From positions 1-40,204 of the forward strand of contig JAEEKL010000013.1 in the NCBI GenBank assembly GCA_016282395.1: a stretch of 40,204 nucleotides of DNA, read 5' to 3'. The position numbers were made by a program, and so were the translations under genes. This stretch comes from Bacteroidales bacterium. GTDB lineage: Bacteria > Bacteroidota > Bacteroidia > Bacteroidales > WCHB1-69. Shown here one piece after another: positions 35,319-39,908 of the stretch (the stretch's first letter is position 1; every line of letters begins with the position of its first letter). Under the pieces are notes generated by a model that saw only the letters and a list, made by a program, of their open reading frames with translations, searched no databases and was not told where the DNA came from.

Positions 35319-35368
35319 ATTTTTTTTCTGATGTAACAAAATGACATCTTCGTGCGACAGACCTGAAC

Positions 35369-35911
35369 GTGACGGAAATAGATTCTGAACTCCAGGAAAT
35401 CATTAACGGTTGTTTGAACAATGATCGTTTGAGCCAACACCGGTTGTACGACAGATACGCGTCGAGGATGTTTGGTGTTTGCCTGCGGTATGCGAATGGC
35501 CGTGAGGAGGCGGAGGATATGTTGATGGAAGGTTTTATGCGGGTTTTCAAGAGCTTGCCGTTGTTCAGAGGGGAAAGTTCGTTCACCACTTGGATTCACT
35601 CCGTAATGGTGAATACTGCCGTCAGCCACTATCGGTCGATGAAGCGTTTCCGCAAGGAATTGCTTGCCGGCGATGTGATTGAGGAAGAGGGAAAAGCAGG
35701 GGAGGAAAACATCATAGCCTCGTTGGAGGCGAAGCAGCTACTGGAGCTGTTGGAACAGATGCCTGATGGAATGCGTGTGGTGTTCAACCTCAAAGCGGTG
35801 GAAGAGTACTCTTTTTCGGAAATCGCGGAGAAATTAGGGAAGAAGGAGAATGCCATCCGCATCAGTTACATGCGGGCACGGCAGTGGATGAAGGAGGCGA
35901 TGAAAAGTTGA
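35369..35911 (+). CDS. ECF-type RNA polymerase sigma factor
   Basis: At 180 residues it has only regions sigma-2 and sigma-4, as expected for an extracytoplasmic-function sigma factor. Region 2 shows LYDRYASRMFGVCLRYANGREEAEDMLMEGFMRVFKSLPLFRG and SSFTTWIHSVMVNTAVSHYR; region 4 shows LLEQMPDGMRVVFNLKAVEEYSFSEIAEKLGKKENAIRISYMRARQWMK. The start is GTG (35369); no in-frame ATG occurs before residue 33. The next gene encodes a single-pass protein with an anti-sigma-like N-terminus, and a GATGA-type repeat fills the 57-base gap. Promoter targets are unknown. Confidence 0.93.
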   Translation: MTEIDSELQEIINGCLNNDRLSQHRLYDRYASRMFGVCLRYANGREEAEDMLMEGFMRVFKSLPLFRGESSFTTWIHSVMVNTAVSHYRSMKRFRKELLAGDVIEEEGKAGEENIIASLEAKQLLELLEQMPDGMRVVFNLKAVEEYSFSEIAEKLGKKENAIRISYMRARQWMKEAMKS

Positions 35912-35944
35912 TGAGTTGATGAGATGATAGGATGATGAGATGAT
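35908..35944. repeat. GATGA-type low-complexity tract between sigma and partner gene
   Basis: The tract runs TTGATGAGTTGATGAGATGA and then TAGGATGATGAGATGATTTT. It overlaps the sigma stop codon and makes up most of the intergenic gap. Confidence 0.75.
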
Positions 35945-35968
35945 TTTAGAGATAGTATTGATAAAGAT

Positions 35969-36808
35969 ATGAAAAACGTAAAAGATGTTTTGAAAACATA
36001 CGAGGAGAACCCTTCTGCGGATGTGTGGAAGCGGCTGAATGCCCGGTTGGATGCGGAAATGCCGGTGACGGGGAAAGTGCATCGGATTCACCGTGTCACG
36101 GTGTGGAAATGGATGGCTGCCGTGTTGTCGGGAATTATTATAGTCAGCGCAGTGGTTTTGGGTGTTCTCCTGCATCAGCGTGGAAATCAGGATGTTATTG
36201 TAGAAAATAATACAAAAGTGATTGAAAATACGGGAGATAACTCGTCCGATGCGGTAACGGAATCGAAAGAATCCGTAGAAACGGATGTGGCTCCGGCTGT
36301 GATGAATGCCGATTGTGTCGATAAGTCTCGGCATGTTAGCGACAAAGTGGTAGAGAACCCTATTCCACAACCAGAAATACAAGATAAAGAGAAACCTGTT
36401 CTCCAACCAGAAACACAAGAAAAAACGATGCCGAATACCAAGGTCCATCAGGTTGTGTTGCCGCCTAATTCAACGTTAGCCAAACAATTAGCTGCTGACC
36501 CTGTGCTGAAAAAACTCTCTGACGACAGCGTGGATTGGTCGTTGCCGGTACATTTCAGCATTCCTAACTTGTTCACTCCGAACAATGACGGAGTCAATGA
36601 CTTTTTCGTGATAGAAGGATTGGAAAGCTATTCATCGCCGAGATTAGTTGTCCGTGACAAAAACAACAAAGTGGTGTATCAAAGCGAGTCATATAAAAAC
36701 ACTTGGAACGGCGGGTCTTGTCCCGATGGAGTATATAGCTACGAGTTCACGTTTTCATACAATGGTATAGAAAACCAGGCATCGGGGAAGGTGAGGATAA
36801 TGCGATAA
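35969..36808 (+). CDS. Single-pass anti-sigma-like protein with T9SS type B (CHU_C) C-terminal domain
   Basis: The N-terminus (about residues 1-48) is cytoplasmic and contains YEENPSADVWKRLNARLDAEM, the short helical segment typical of Bacteroidota anti-sigma-like proteins. A membrane segment (MAAVLSGIIIVSAVVLGVLL, about 49-68) follows, then a Glu/Lys/Pro-rich periplasmic linker and a C-terminal CHU_C domain: IPNLFTPNNDGVNDFF, NKVVYQSESYKNTWNGGSCPDGVYSYEFTF, ending in GKVRIMR. CHU_C usually directs T9SS export, yet this protein has no cleavable signal peptide. The pairing with the ECF sigma suggests the periplasmic domain senses something and the N-terminus holds the sigma. That is inference; no zinc-binding ZAS motif is seen. 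Confidence 0.8.
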   Translation: MKNVKDVLKTYEENPSADVWKRLNARLDAEMPVTGKVHRIHRVTVWKWMAAVLSGIIIVSAVVLGVLLHQRGNQDVIVENNTKVIENTGDNSSDAVTESKESVETDVAPAVMNADCVDKSRHVSDKVVENPIPQPEIQDKEKPVLQPETQEKTMPNTKVHQVVLPPNSTLAKQLAADPVLKKLSDDSVDWSLPVHFSIPNLFTPNNDGVNDFFVIEGLESYSSPRLVVRDKNNKVVYQSESYKNTWNGGSCPDGVYSYEFTFSYNGIENQASGKVRIMR

Positions 36809-36844
36809 TAATTTTCCTCAAACTGCGGGTTTTGATTTTTTTTG

Positions 36845-36853
36845 TATTTTTGC
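36845..36853 (+). promoter_or_regulatory. -7 promoter element for the large lipoprotein / barrel pair
   Basis: TATTTTTGC matches TAnnTTTGC and lies downstream of the ORF-track start (36832), which supports the ATG at 36874 as the real start. Confidence 0.68.
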
Positions 36854-36873
36854 TGCATCAAAAATTATATTTT

Positions 36874-38448
36874 ATGCGAAAAAAAACATATTACTTGTTT
36901 CATGTTGTAGCTTTGCTGATGTTGATTACATTCGCCGGCTGCAACGAAAATGCTTTCAATTTTTCACAGCTTGATGAAATTGACAGTAATGGTGACTGGG
37001 GATTTCCATTGCTTAATGCAGAATACACTATTGGTGATATTATGGACTTGAGCAGTGATATTGGCTATATTCAAGAGGGCAGTGACGGAACACTTGAGAT
37101 TCGTTATGAATACACATTTGATTCTGTTATCTCCGCGTCCGAATATCTTGAATCGTACTTCGGTTCGGATATTGTGGCGGATGGGACTTCTGTGATTTCT
37201 TCCACCGAGTTGCCCCCAATTCAGGGAAATGTGCAGATGTTATTTGTTGACACGATTGTGGCTCAGTTTCCCGCAGACATAATTCTTTTGGAAAGTGCCT
37301 CGCTAAAGTCGGGGCAGATGGTGTTGCATGTGGATTATAATGTCATGCAGCCGACGCACCTTGTGGTCACTTGTCCGCAATTGACCAATGCTGCGGGGCA
37401 GCCGCTATACTTGGAGGCACAGTCCACGGGGGGGAGTTATACGACCATGGTGGACATCAGCGGTTATACTCTTACTGTTCCTTCTAACAACGAGATAGAC
37501 ATCTTCATGAGGGTGTCGTGTGTCGCGAACGCAGGGTCGCTGCCTGACGAGCTGATGTTCAACTACAGTGCAACATTCCAGCAGATTTTATTTAGAGAGA
37601 TACGCGGTAAGTTTGCTGCGGTGGATGTCCAGATGGACAACGAGTGGGATTTTGACAACCAGTTTTTACGCGACCATATTTCCGGCAATATGACGTTGCA
37701 TAACCCACAGGTCAATTTTGAGGTTTTGAACAGTTTCCCTGTGAGAGGCACAGTTGTGTTTGACCAGGCAGAACTTTCGGGTGGTGGAAACTCGGCGTCG
37801 TTGCTCGCGTATTCGCCCGAAACGGTAGAGATTCCCGGCAACACCAATCAGTTTGTCCCCGTTGATTTGCCTACAGCCAGCACATTGCAGCTTTCTCCCG
37901 ATTATAGTCACTTCAAGCTCAAAGGCAATGCGGTTATCAATCCTGACGGGTTCAGCACTCCGACGTTAGTGTTCCGTGAAGACCAACTCATCAGTCTGCG
38001 CATCACTGTCGTTCTCCCCTTGGACATAGACATAGATGACATCGTGTTTTGTGATACGTTGCCGTTCGCTGGTTTCAGCCTCCCGTCCGAATCGGCATTT
38101 TCCAATATGCTGCTTCGCCTCGGCATCACGAATGCTTTGCCCTTGAATTTCCAGCTGCAGGCTTATTTCTATGATTCACAAACCGCCACGGTGATGGATA
38201 GTTTGTTTATGGAAACCCAGACAGTGTTGAGCGCACAGGGCGGAACACCCCGCTTCAGTGAGATTTTCGCCACCAAGGACAATTTTGAAGAGGTCCGTCG
38301 AATGTTCAGTTGCGACAATATTATTTTACGAGCCCGTCTTTATACAGATGGATCCCCGGTCTCTATCAATGTTGCGCAAGCTATTCGTTTTCGATTAGGC
38401 GCAAGAATGAATGTTGATATGAACGGTTTGGTGAATATAGGTAACTGA
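36874..38448 (+). CDS. Large predicted lipoprotein of unknown function
   Basis: The ORF track begins at 36832, but a promoter element lies inside that extension and the internal Met (MRKKTYYLFHVVALLMLITFAGC) starts a lipoprotein signal, so 36874 is preferred. The 524-residue protein is beta-rich and acidic, with long Val/Thr strands such as MVLHVDYNVMQPTHLVVTC, and a near N-terminal segment DSNGDWGFPLLNAEYTIGDIM that I associate loosely with Bacteroidota surface lipoproteins. No catalytic motif is recognised. The DUF5723-like gene starts 11 bases after its stop, suggesting a lipoprotein and barrel that work together. Confidence 0.72.
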   Translation: MRKKTYYLFHVVALLMLITFAGCNENAFNFSQLDEIDSNGDWGFPLLNAEYTIGDIMDLSSDIGYIQEGSDGTLEIRYEYTFDSVISASEYLESYFGSDIVADGTSVISSTELPPIQGNVQMLFVDTIVAQFPADIILLESASLKSGQMVLHVDYNVMQPTHLVVTCPQLTNAAGQPLYLEAQSTGGSYTTMVDISGYTLTVPSNNEIDIFMRVSCVANAGSLPDELMFNYSATFQQILFREIRGKFAAVDVQMDNEWDFDNQFLRDHISGNMTLHNPQVNFEVLNSFPVRGTVVFDQAELSGGGNSASLLAYSPETVEIPGNTNQFVPVDLPTASTLQLSPDYSHFKLKGNAVINPDGFSTPTLVFREDQLISLRITVVLPLDIDIDDIVFCDTLPFAGFSLPSESAFSNMLLRLGITNALPLNFQLQAYFYDSQTATVMDSLFMETQTVLSAQGGTPRFSEIFATKDNFEEVRRMFSCDNIILRARLYTDGSPVSINVAQAIRFRLGARMNVDMNGLVNIGN

Positions 38449-38459
38449 TTTTGGCCGCT

Positions 38460-39908
38460 ATGAAGAAAATTATCTTAACTTTAATGGTTGGTGTGTGTTA
38501 TGCTCTTTCAGTGAGCGGGCAGGCTTTGGATGTGACCCATTTCATGCGTATTTCGCCGTTCCAGCACAACAACTTGCCCTCAAGTTCCACCATTTACAAC
38601 GGCTATTTCAGTCTTCCCACTGGAAATATTCAAGCGGGTGTGAATTTGGGTGCAATCCGATACAAAAACCTCTTTGAAACCGACGAGGAGGGTTATCCGA
38701 CAGTGCTGACAGCCACGAAGTTCGTGAACAGTCTTTCCAACAAGAATTACTTTGGCGTTTATGATGACATTGAGCTGCTCGGTGTCGGATTCCGGATTAA
38801 GGACCGATACTTTCTGACGGTGGACTACCGGCAACGTGCCAATCTTGACTTCATATATTCCCGGGATGTCCTCGGTCTGCCTATTTATGGTAATATGGCA
38901 TACGTTGACAATCCTGCCGACTTGAATTTGTCCATCAACCTGAACGCTTACCAGGAACTTGGGGTCAGTTTCAGACATAAGGTCAATAATAGGATTTCGT
39001 GGGGAGTGCGCCCGAAGGTTCTTTTCGGCCTTGCCAATGTGAACACCCAGACACTCTCTGCGCAAGTCGCCACAAATCCTAATGACTACACCATCAGCAT
39101 GAGGTATGCTGCTGCTCTGCGTGCTGCCGCTATTGTTCCGTTTACCATGACGTTCAACCCACAAGATGGCTTCCAGTTTGATGCGGACTATAATGTCGGG
39201 ATTATTTTGAAAAATGCCTTCAAAAATGCCGGTTTCGGAATCGATTTGGGCTTTTCTTACAAGTTTATGGAATCGCTTGGATTGTCAGCCGGAGTTCTTG
39301 ACCTTGGCTTTATCAACTGGAAAACGTCCACAACGAGTATGAGCAGCAGTTTGGATGATGCCGGCAGCCTGTACAACGAAGGCGCGTTTACGTTCAGCGG
39401 ATTGACCCAGTCCGATATTGACGCAATAATGGAAGAAGGCTCTTCCGGTATATTGGACACGCTGGCGCAATATTTTCCGTTAGAAATCGTCCCTACAGGG
39501 AGCTATATGTCAGCCCTCACTCCGAGGGTGGTCTTACAGGCGGATTACGAGTTTGCCAAATTTCATCGCGTCAGTGTTGCCACGCAGTTCCGTTTCGCAA
39601 ATAAGTATTTCCAACCCTCTCTCACTGTGGCATACGACGGACTGTTTTTCAACTCTATTGATGTATGTGTGGCGTATACCATACAACGCAATTCCTATGA
39701 CAACCTTGGCGTGGGATTGGGGTTCAACCTCGGCTATCTGAACATCTATGCCGGCACACAGAATATCATTGCTGCATTTTCGGTCAAGAATGTTTCCCAG
39801 CTGACGGCTACCGCAGGAGTTGTTTTCAACTGGGGGCATTACAAGAATTGGAGGGAAAAATACCCGAAAAAGGAAAAAAAGCCTAAAGAAGGGAAGAAGA
39901 GAGGATAA
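38460..39908 (+). CDS. DUF5723-like outer-membrane beta-barrel protein
   Basis: The ORF track uses TTG at 38451; the ATG at 38460 gives a clean signal peptide (MKKIILTLMVGVCYALSVSGQ) and is chosen. The 482-residue mature protein begins LDVTHFMRISPFQHNNLPSSSTIYNGYFSLPTGNIQAGVNLGAI, resembling DUF5723, with many amphipathic strands (ISWGVRPKVLFGLANV, GFGIDLGFSYKFMESLGLSAGVLDLGFINW, LGVGLGFNLGYLNIYAGTQNI). The short Lys-rich tail after VVFNWGHYKNW is unusual for a barrel. It is probably a FadL/PorV-like surface barrel, partner of the upstream lipoprotein. Function is unknown. It ends at a terminator shared with glyA. Confidence 0.8.
   Translation: MKKIILTLMVGVCYALSVSGQALDVTHFMRISPFQHNNLPSSSTIYNGYFSLPTGNIQAGVNLGAIRYKNLFETDEEGYPTVLTATKFVNSLSNKNYFGVYDDIELLGVGFRIKDRYFLTVDYRQRANLDFIYSRDVLGLPIYGNMAYVDNPADLNLSINLNAYQELGVSFRHKVNNRISWGVRPKVLFGLANVNTQTLSAQVATNPNDYTISMRYAAALRAAAIVPFTMTFNPQDGFQFDADYNVGIILKNAFKNAGFGIDLGFSYKFMESLGLSAGVLDLGFINWKTSTTSMSSSLDDAGSLYNEGAFTFSGLTQSDIDAIMEEGSSGILDTLAQYFPLEIVPTGSYMSALTPRVVLQADYEFAKFHRVSVATQFRFANKYFQPSLTVAYDGLFFNSIDVCVAYTIQRNSYDNLGVGLGFNLGYLNIYAGTQNIIAAFSVKNVSQLTATAGVVFNWGHYKNWREKYPKKEKKPKEGKKRG

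Follow-up and report, generated by a model that had tools for sequence, protein, structure and literature searches.

A Bacteroidales ECF sigma factor paired with a membrane-anchored T9SS type B domain protein, and its predicted regulon of T9SS cargo

Why a T9SS type B (CHU_C) domain should be carried by a membrane-anchored protein encoded next to an ECF sigma factor, and whether secretion then bears on what that sigma factor transcribes, is the question raised by a locus in a Bacteroidales genome. The window, meaning the whole stretch of DNA that was analyzed (40,204 nucleotides), comes from a fragmented 2.5-Mb genome that is 69% complete, and the nearest named records of its genus are mostly rumen metagenome assemblies. 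The pairing of the sigma factor with the CHU_C protein is a genuine observation, and the coordinates first reported for the two genes (35369-36808) are correct. The genes are spaced by 57 bp, and the locus comprises the following features:

35332..35359, + strand: predicted autoregulated ECF promoter TGTAACAAAATGACATCTTCGTGCGACA, with -35 TGTAAC, a 16-nt spacer and -10 GCGACA
35369..35911, + strand: ECF sigma factor, 180 aa, GTG start and TGA stop, placed by profile matches and orthologue position
35969..36808, + strand: membrane-anchored anti-sigma candidate with a C-terminal T9SS type B domain, 279 aa, ATG to TAA
35969..36103, + strand: cytoplasmic N-terminus, residues 1-45, candidate sigma-binding segment (alignments A1 and A4; low-confidence AlphaFold2 model)
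36116..36172, + strand: single transmembrane segment, residues 50-68 (hydropathy scan; long helix in the model)
36173..36556, + strand: low-complexity, disordered linker rich in P/E/K/T/S, 129 aa, the most variable part (model)
36557..36805, + strand: CHU_C / T9SS type B domain, residues 197-279 (PF13585, TIGR04131)

The product of the first gene exceeds the cut-off for both Sigma70 Pfam domains (Sigma70_r2, E=1e-14; Sigma70_r4_2, E=7e-13) and matches TIGR02937 (E=2e-26). Its ~180 aa comprise regions 2 and 4, with regions 1 and 3 absent, and its PDB relatives are ECF sigma factors. The second protein has the layout of a transmembrane anti-sigma factor, being encoded beside the sigma gene with a presumably cytoplasmic N-terminus and one span. 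At its C-terminus, both type B profiles score above their curated cut-offs, with the PF13585 CHU_C match (residues 197-270, E=1e-15) exceeding the Pfam gathering score and TIGR04131 reaching 41.3 bits against a cut-off of 35. Because the sole hydrophobic segment (residues 50-68, mean Kyte-Doolittle 2.77) is internal, there is no N-terminal signal peptide; the hydropathy scan therefore agrees with the initial annotation, which described a protein with no cleavable signal peptide, and the candidate lacks the Sec signal peptide that characterizes T9SS cargo.

The N-terminus of the candidate carries a PSxxxWxRLxxRLD motif, in which W20 is invariant in the alignments, and is predicted to form two short helices (residues 4-13 and 17-30) in an AlphaFold2 model whose low confidence (mean pLDDT 47.5) restricts its use to secondary structure. 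With ~45 aa and two predicted helices, this segment does not correspond to a class I ASD/ZAS domain (four helices, at least 50 aa), and no Pfam anti-sigma family is matched. The NCBIfam "anti-sigma factor" profile NF052375 gives a weak match at residues 10-88 (E=0.0013), far under its cut-off, and a fold search of the low-confidence model against the PDB returned no match at E<=0.001. The linker is modeled mainly at low confidence with no secondary structure, and contains a conserved stretch before CHU_C (NSTLAxQ...DPVL...).

A CHU_C orthologue is kept in all 35 other genomes of the genus at 34-74% identity, matching over its full length apart from a few split or truncated matches, and the sigma gene lies directly upstream at every genus locus that is not interrupted by a contig end. 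It is because of this conservation that the pair cannot be attributed to chance. Most of these loci are syntenic with DUF4837 and DprA, and SprA is found in all genomes of the genus. By mean pairwise difference, conservation within the protein is highest in the CHU_C domain (0.39) and lowest in the linker (0.82). Distances among the sigma factors correlate equally well with those of the CHU_C domain and of the N-terminus; this co-divergence of sigma and anti-sigma is a real signal, but, since it is not specific to the N-terminus, it singles out no binding site and was set aside as evidence of binding.

Two further observations concern the locus in individual relatives. Downstream of the pair, at 36832-39908 of the window, lie genes for a putative lipoprotein and a DUF5723 outer-membrane protein; they were dropped as candidate partners, as they adjoin the pair in some relatives only. 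In one species (L065:1809-2546 and L044), an in-frame deletion of ~29 residues removes the IPNLFTPNGDGVND start of CHU_C, which is either a natural variant or an assembly collapse.

The promoter of the sigma gene offers a way to its targets. The sequence TGTAAC-N16-GCGAC or a close variant is kept upstream of the sigma gene across the genus genomes, and the site at 35332-35359 is the sole match in the window at <=3 mismatches, with 0.06 expected. The sigma factor is thus predicted to be autoregulated, reading the promoter in front of its own gene. In three genomes (G015, G022 and G027), the sigma promoter has instead the form TGTARC-N16-GCATCTA. This form occurs at 14 sites in these three genomes, namely the 3 sigma promoters and 11 others, and at none in six other genomes, while TGTARC-N16-GCGACA occurs at 7 and 8 sites in two genomes and at none in the three. 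The genes behind the 11 non-self sites nearly all encode proteins with a signal peptide, several of them from families of the other clade, and the same three genomes have in common changes in sigma region 2 that are absent from all others. As the -10 element has shifted together in the sigma promoter and in the regulon sites, the predicted regulon very probably belongs to this sigma factor. The simplest reading is that one sigma factor reads all of these promoters, its specificity changing along with them; another ECF sigma factor that changed in step with the promoters is possible.

A pattern search of nine genus genomes yielded 58 sites, 9 of which are the sigma promoters themselves. The 49 non-self sites, except those at contig ends, precede a gene by 8-145 bp, and the product of that gene has a signal peptide in nearly every case. 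A reversed-pattern control gave 43 sites, so similar a count that raw motif numbers were rejected as proof of a regulon and the case was built on position and gene content instead: 0 of the 30 control sites examined were in promoter position. In the window's genome, all six non-self sites lead genes or operons for proteins with T9SS sorting domains, four type B and two type A:

Site C5: leads a 450-aa CHU_C protein
Site C36: leads a type A protein
Site C53: leads a CHU_C protein
Site C62: leads a C10 protease with a type A domain
Site C157: leads a CHU_C protein
Site C195: leads a 149-aa gene followed, 24 bp on, by a 948-aa CHU_C protein

Against a background of ~103 T9SS-domain genes over the cut-off (20 CHU_C, 83 type A) among some 2200 genes, a total estimated from genome size, six of six corresponds to P about 7e-7 with two genes counted per unit. 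Over the nine genomes, which are related and not independent, a T9SS domain is encoded by the first or second gene of 31 of the 43 readable units, and nearly all of the remainder encode signal-peptide proteins. Type B is enriched over type A among the targets (4/20 versus 2/83, P=0.012), with the strict motif reaching part of the cargo at these 4 of 20 CHU_C genes, and the enriched class is the very domain class found on the anti-sigma candidate. No core T9SS gene was recognized among the 47 first genes behind predicted sites. The predicted regulon is therefore T9SS cargo, chiefly type B, an assignment that is strongly supported by sequence.

A family of secreted proteins of 149-161 aa with the signature LRxNNPAxLVR (L197:3993-4439, L198, L204, L210, L212, L224, L234 and L237) was also noted. 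Its genes usually lie directly upstream of a ~950-aa CHU_C gene with a sigma-type promoter in front, and the one member scanned has no Pfam match. Similar proteins stand behind the promoter in both clades.

The architecture extends well beyond the genus. An order-wide profile search was followed by inspection of 60 candidate loci. In 31 of these, an ECF sigma gene immediately precedes the gene for the CHU_C protein. All 31 sigma-linked proteins are devoid of a signal peptide and have an internal span (in L073, the segment falls under the scan threshold); the CHU_C proteins of the other 29 loci have no sigma neighbor and are ordinary cargo or fragments. The fusion beside ECF sigma genes that the initial annotation had proposed looking for elsewhere is accordingly present in at least eight families of the order Bacteroidales, and the layout is not specific to this locus. 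Since the survey followed the top CHU_C hits, this extent is a minimum; among the top hits sampled from other orders, 17 short CHU_C candidates had no sigma neighbor. Two unrelated forms can be distinguished by the kind of N-terminus and the sigma lineage. The short form, to which the window's protein belongs, has a W-containing N-terminus and mostly a few bases between the sigma gene and the second gene. The long form (L085, L086, L087, L091, L095, L096, L102 and L103) is ~400-480 aa in length, with a PxGYFxxL-like N-terminus and an extra cysteine-containing domain before CHU_C, and is paired with another ECF sigma lineage.

The sorting domain itself is modified. RWG is present in 0 of 66 anti-sigma CHU_C domains and in 64 of 91 cargo domains, and any aromatic residue at the NRWG position in 1 of 66 versus 74 of 91 (P=9e-27, a value that overstates the difference, as the anti-sigma label needs only 4 changes on a weak domain tree and the 66 domains are far from independent). 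The window's domain likewise has no aromatic of the cargo NRWG motif. Type B domains of F. johnsoniae contain five conserved motifs, each of which is needed for secretion (PMC12618676). A CHU_C domain of the aromatic-less kind could permit binding without normal export, and the position marks a specific motif that may separate the two; equally, given the missing aromatic, the anti-sigma CHU_C may be handled in a way quite unlike cargo.

Because the predicted regulon consists of T9SS cargo, the link to the T9SS looks functional, not merely a borrowed domain, and suggests that the cell ties the making of proteins for secretion to the route by which they are exported. By a slight balance of probability, the pair is an ECF sigma / membrane anti-sigma switch for T9SS cargo that matches cargo synthesis to export capacity. 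In such a switch, the sigma factor would be held at the inner membrane by the short cytoplasmic N-terminus, and CHU_C would sit in the periplasm at the end of a flexible linker whose length suffices for the outer membrane. For type B cargo, PorP/SprF-like shuttles are needed (PMC9143113, PMC12618676), and an anchored type B domain could thus compete with cargo for them: the type B route (a PorP/SprF-like shuttle plus SprA) would engage CHU_C in competition with cargo. When the route is free, CHU_C would be engaged and the sigma factor released, probably via proteolysis, whereas a route loaded with cargo would leave the sigma factor held. Once active, it would transcribe its own operon together with the predicted cargo regulon, mostly of type B. 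As the predicted targets encode cargo and not machinery, a sigma factor that is ON at free export capacity is favored, a polarity opposite to that first suggested.

Alternatively, the T9SS might carry CHU_C through the outer membrane, where a PorP/SprF-like anchor would keep it, so that a single chain from cytoplasm to surface reports a surface or envelope cue and not export capacity. In B. thetaiotaomicron, the anti-sigma factors Dma1 and Dma2 have domains reaching from the outer membrane to the cytosol (PMC13088901), PorP-like proteins bind and retain type B domains (PMC9143113), and the 129-aa linker provides enough length. Such a sensor is nonetheless unlikely: T9SS effectors are described with a Sec-dependent N-terminal signal peptide that is absent here (PMC12618676), CHU_C has no aromatic of the cargo motif, and a pure surface sensor leaves the T9SS-cargo regulon unexplained. 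The initial annotation was sound in reading the protein as a membrane anti-sigma candidate with a T9SS domain paired with an ECF sigma factor. Its further proposal, that blocked secretion leads the T9SS to displace or capture CHU_C and so frees the sigma factor to answer the failure, is distinctly improbable; the anatomy is compatible with any sensor of T9SS state, but the genes predicted to respond encode cargo, no core T9SS gene having been recognized among them, and release on blockage would be counter-productive, worsening the jam. Least probable is an ordinary anti-sigma factor sensing redox, ligand or envelope stress through CHU_C as a convenient Ig-like periplasmic domain unrelated to the T9SS, which would accord with the lack of the cargo aromatic in 65 of 66 domains and with several anti-sigma groups being interspersed with cargo on the weak domain tree, but not with a T9SS-cargo regulon enriched for the same domain class or with the presence of that domain on two unrelated sigma/N-terminus lineages.

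Among known systems, Dma is the nearest in design, PorA-SigP in theme and FlgM-type coupling in logic. Dma likewise joins a Bacteroidota ECF sigma factor to an anti-sigma factor with an outer envelope element, such that one protein may link the outer membrane and the cytoplasm; in this comparison, which draws on the description of Dma, the outer part of Dma is an outer-membrane domain and that of the window's protein a CHU_C T9SS domain, and Dma mutants alter vesiculation and polysaccharide utilization loci, whereas the predicted regulon here is T9SS cargo. In circuits of the FlgM-sigma28 type, a secretion machine reads out an anti-sigma factor that controls genes for exported material. The proposed readout of an anti-sigma factor by the machine exporting the regulated products would be similar, except that FlgM is soluble and exported and the window's protein is membrane-anchored and bears a sorting domain belonging to another secretion system.

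The PorA-PorY/PorX-SigP pathway of Porphyromonas gingivalis, cited as precedent from the outset, holds insofar as there, too, an ECF sigma factor has a protein with a T9SS C-terminal domain above it in the pathway. It is a loose one, as PorA, a surface protein with a signal peptide, signals via the sensor kinase and response regulator of a two-component system, and the genes under SigP control are those for T9SS components (PMC7712824), while the window has a single inner-membrane protein directly beside its sigma factor and predicted targets that are cargo. CnrY-type class II anti-sigma factors (PMC7406223) share with the window's protein a cytoplasmic segment that is very short and has two predicted helices, but no CnrY profile matched the window's protein, and its periplasmic part is CHU_C. 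With type B cargo such as SprB and PG1035 (PF13585/TIGR04131), the protein shares an intact C-terminal domain over the curated cut-offs; it differs in its inner-membrane anchor and in the absence of a signal peptide and of the NRWG aromatic. A literature search of incomplete coverage found no description of a CHU_C-bearing anti-sigma factor or of an ECF sigma factor dedicated to T9SS cargo.

Little is known about how Bacteroidota time the synthesis of T9SS cargo, and SigP, the sigma link that has been described, has to do with the machinery. At the present locus, sequence yields a sigma factor, its promoter and a predicted set of cargo targets, together with a candidate sensor sharing the sorting domain of the cargo, which makes the coupling of cargo synthesis to T9SS activity a directly testable question. 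It is put forward tentatively that Bacteroidales possess a widespread one-protein, T9SS-coupled design, evolved at least twice, in which a membrane anti-sigma factor bears a modified type B domain as decoy cargo that would read free capacity and set cargo transcription; if true, this would parallel FlgM-type coupling in another secretion system.

The window's genome also contains a second pair of an ECF sigma factor and a membrane-anchored CHU_C protein (L104:4715-6215, contig 19), which adjoins an M16-peptidase-like gene, as does L066. The strict promoter pattern of this pair has a single site in its own genome, upstream of its own sigma gene. On contig 8 of the same genome (L155:1720-2052), a 110-aa YF-type anti-sigma candidate with one span and no CHU_C domain lies beside an ECF sigma gene, and is possibly a domain-free counterpart of the long form.
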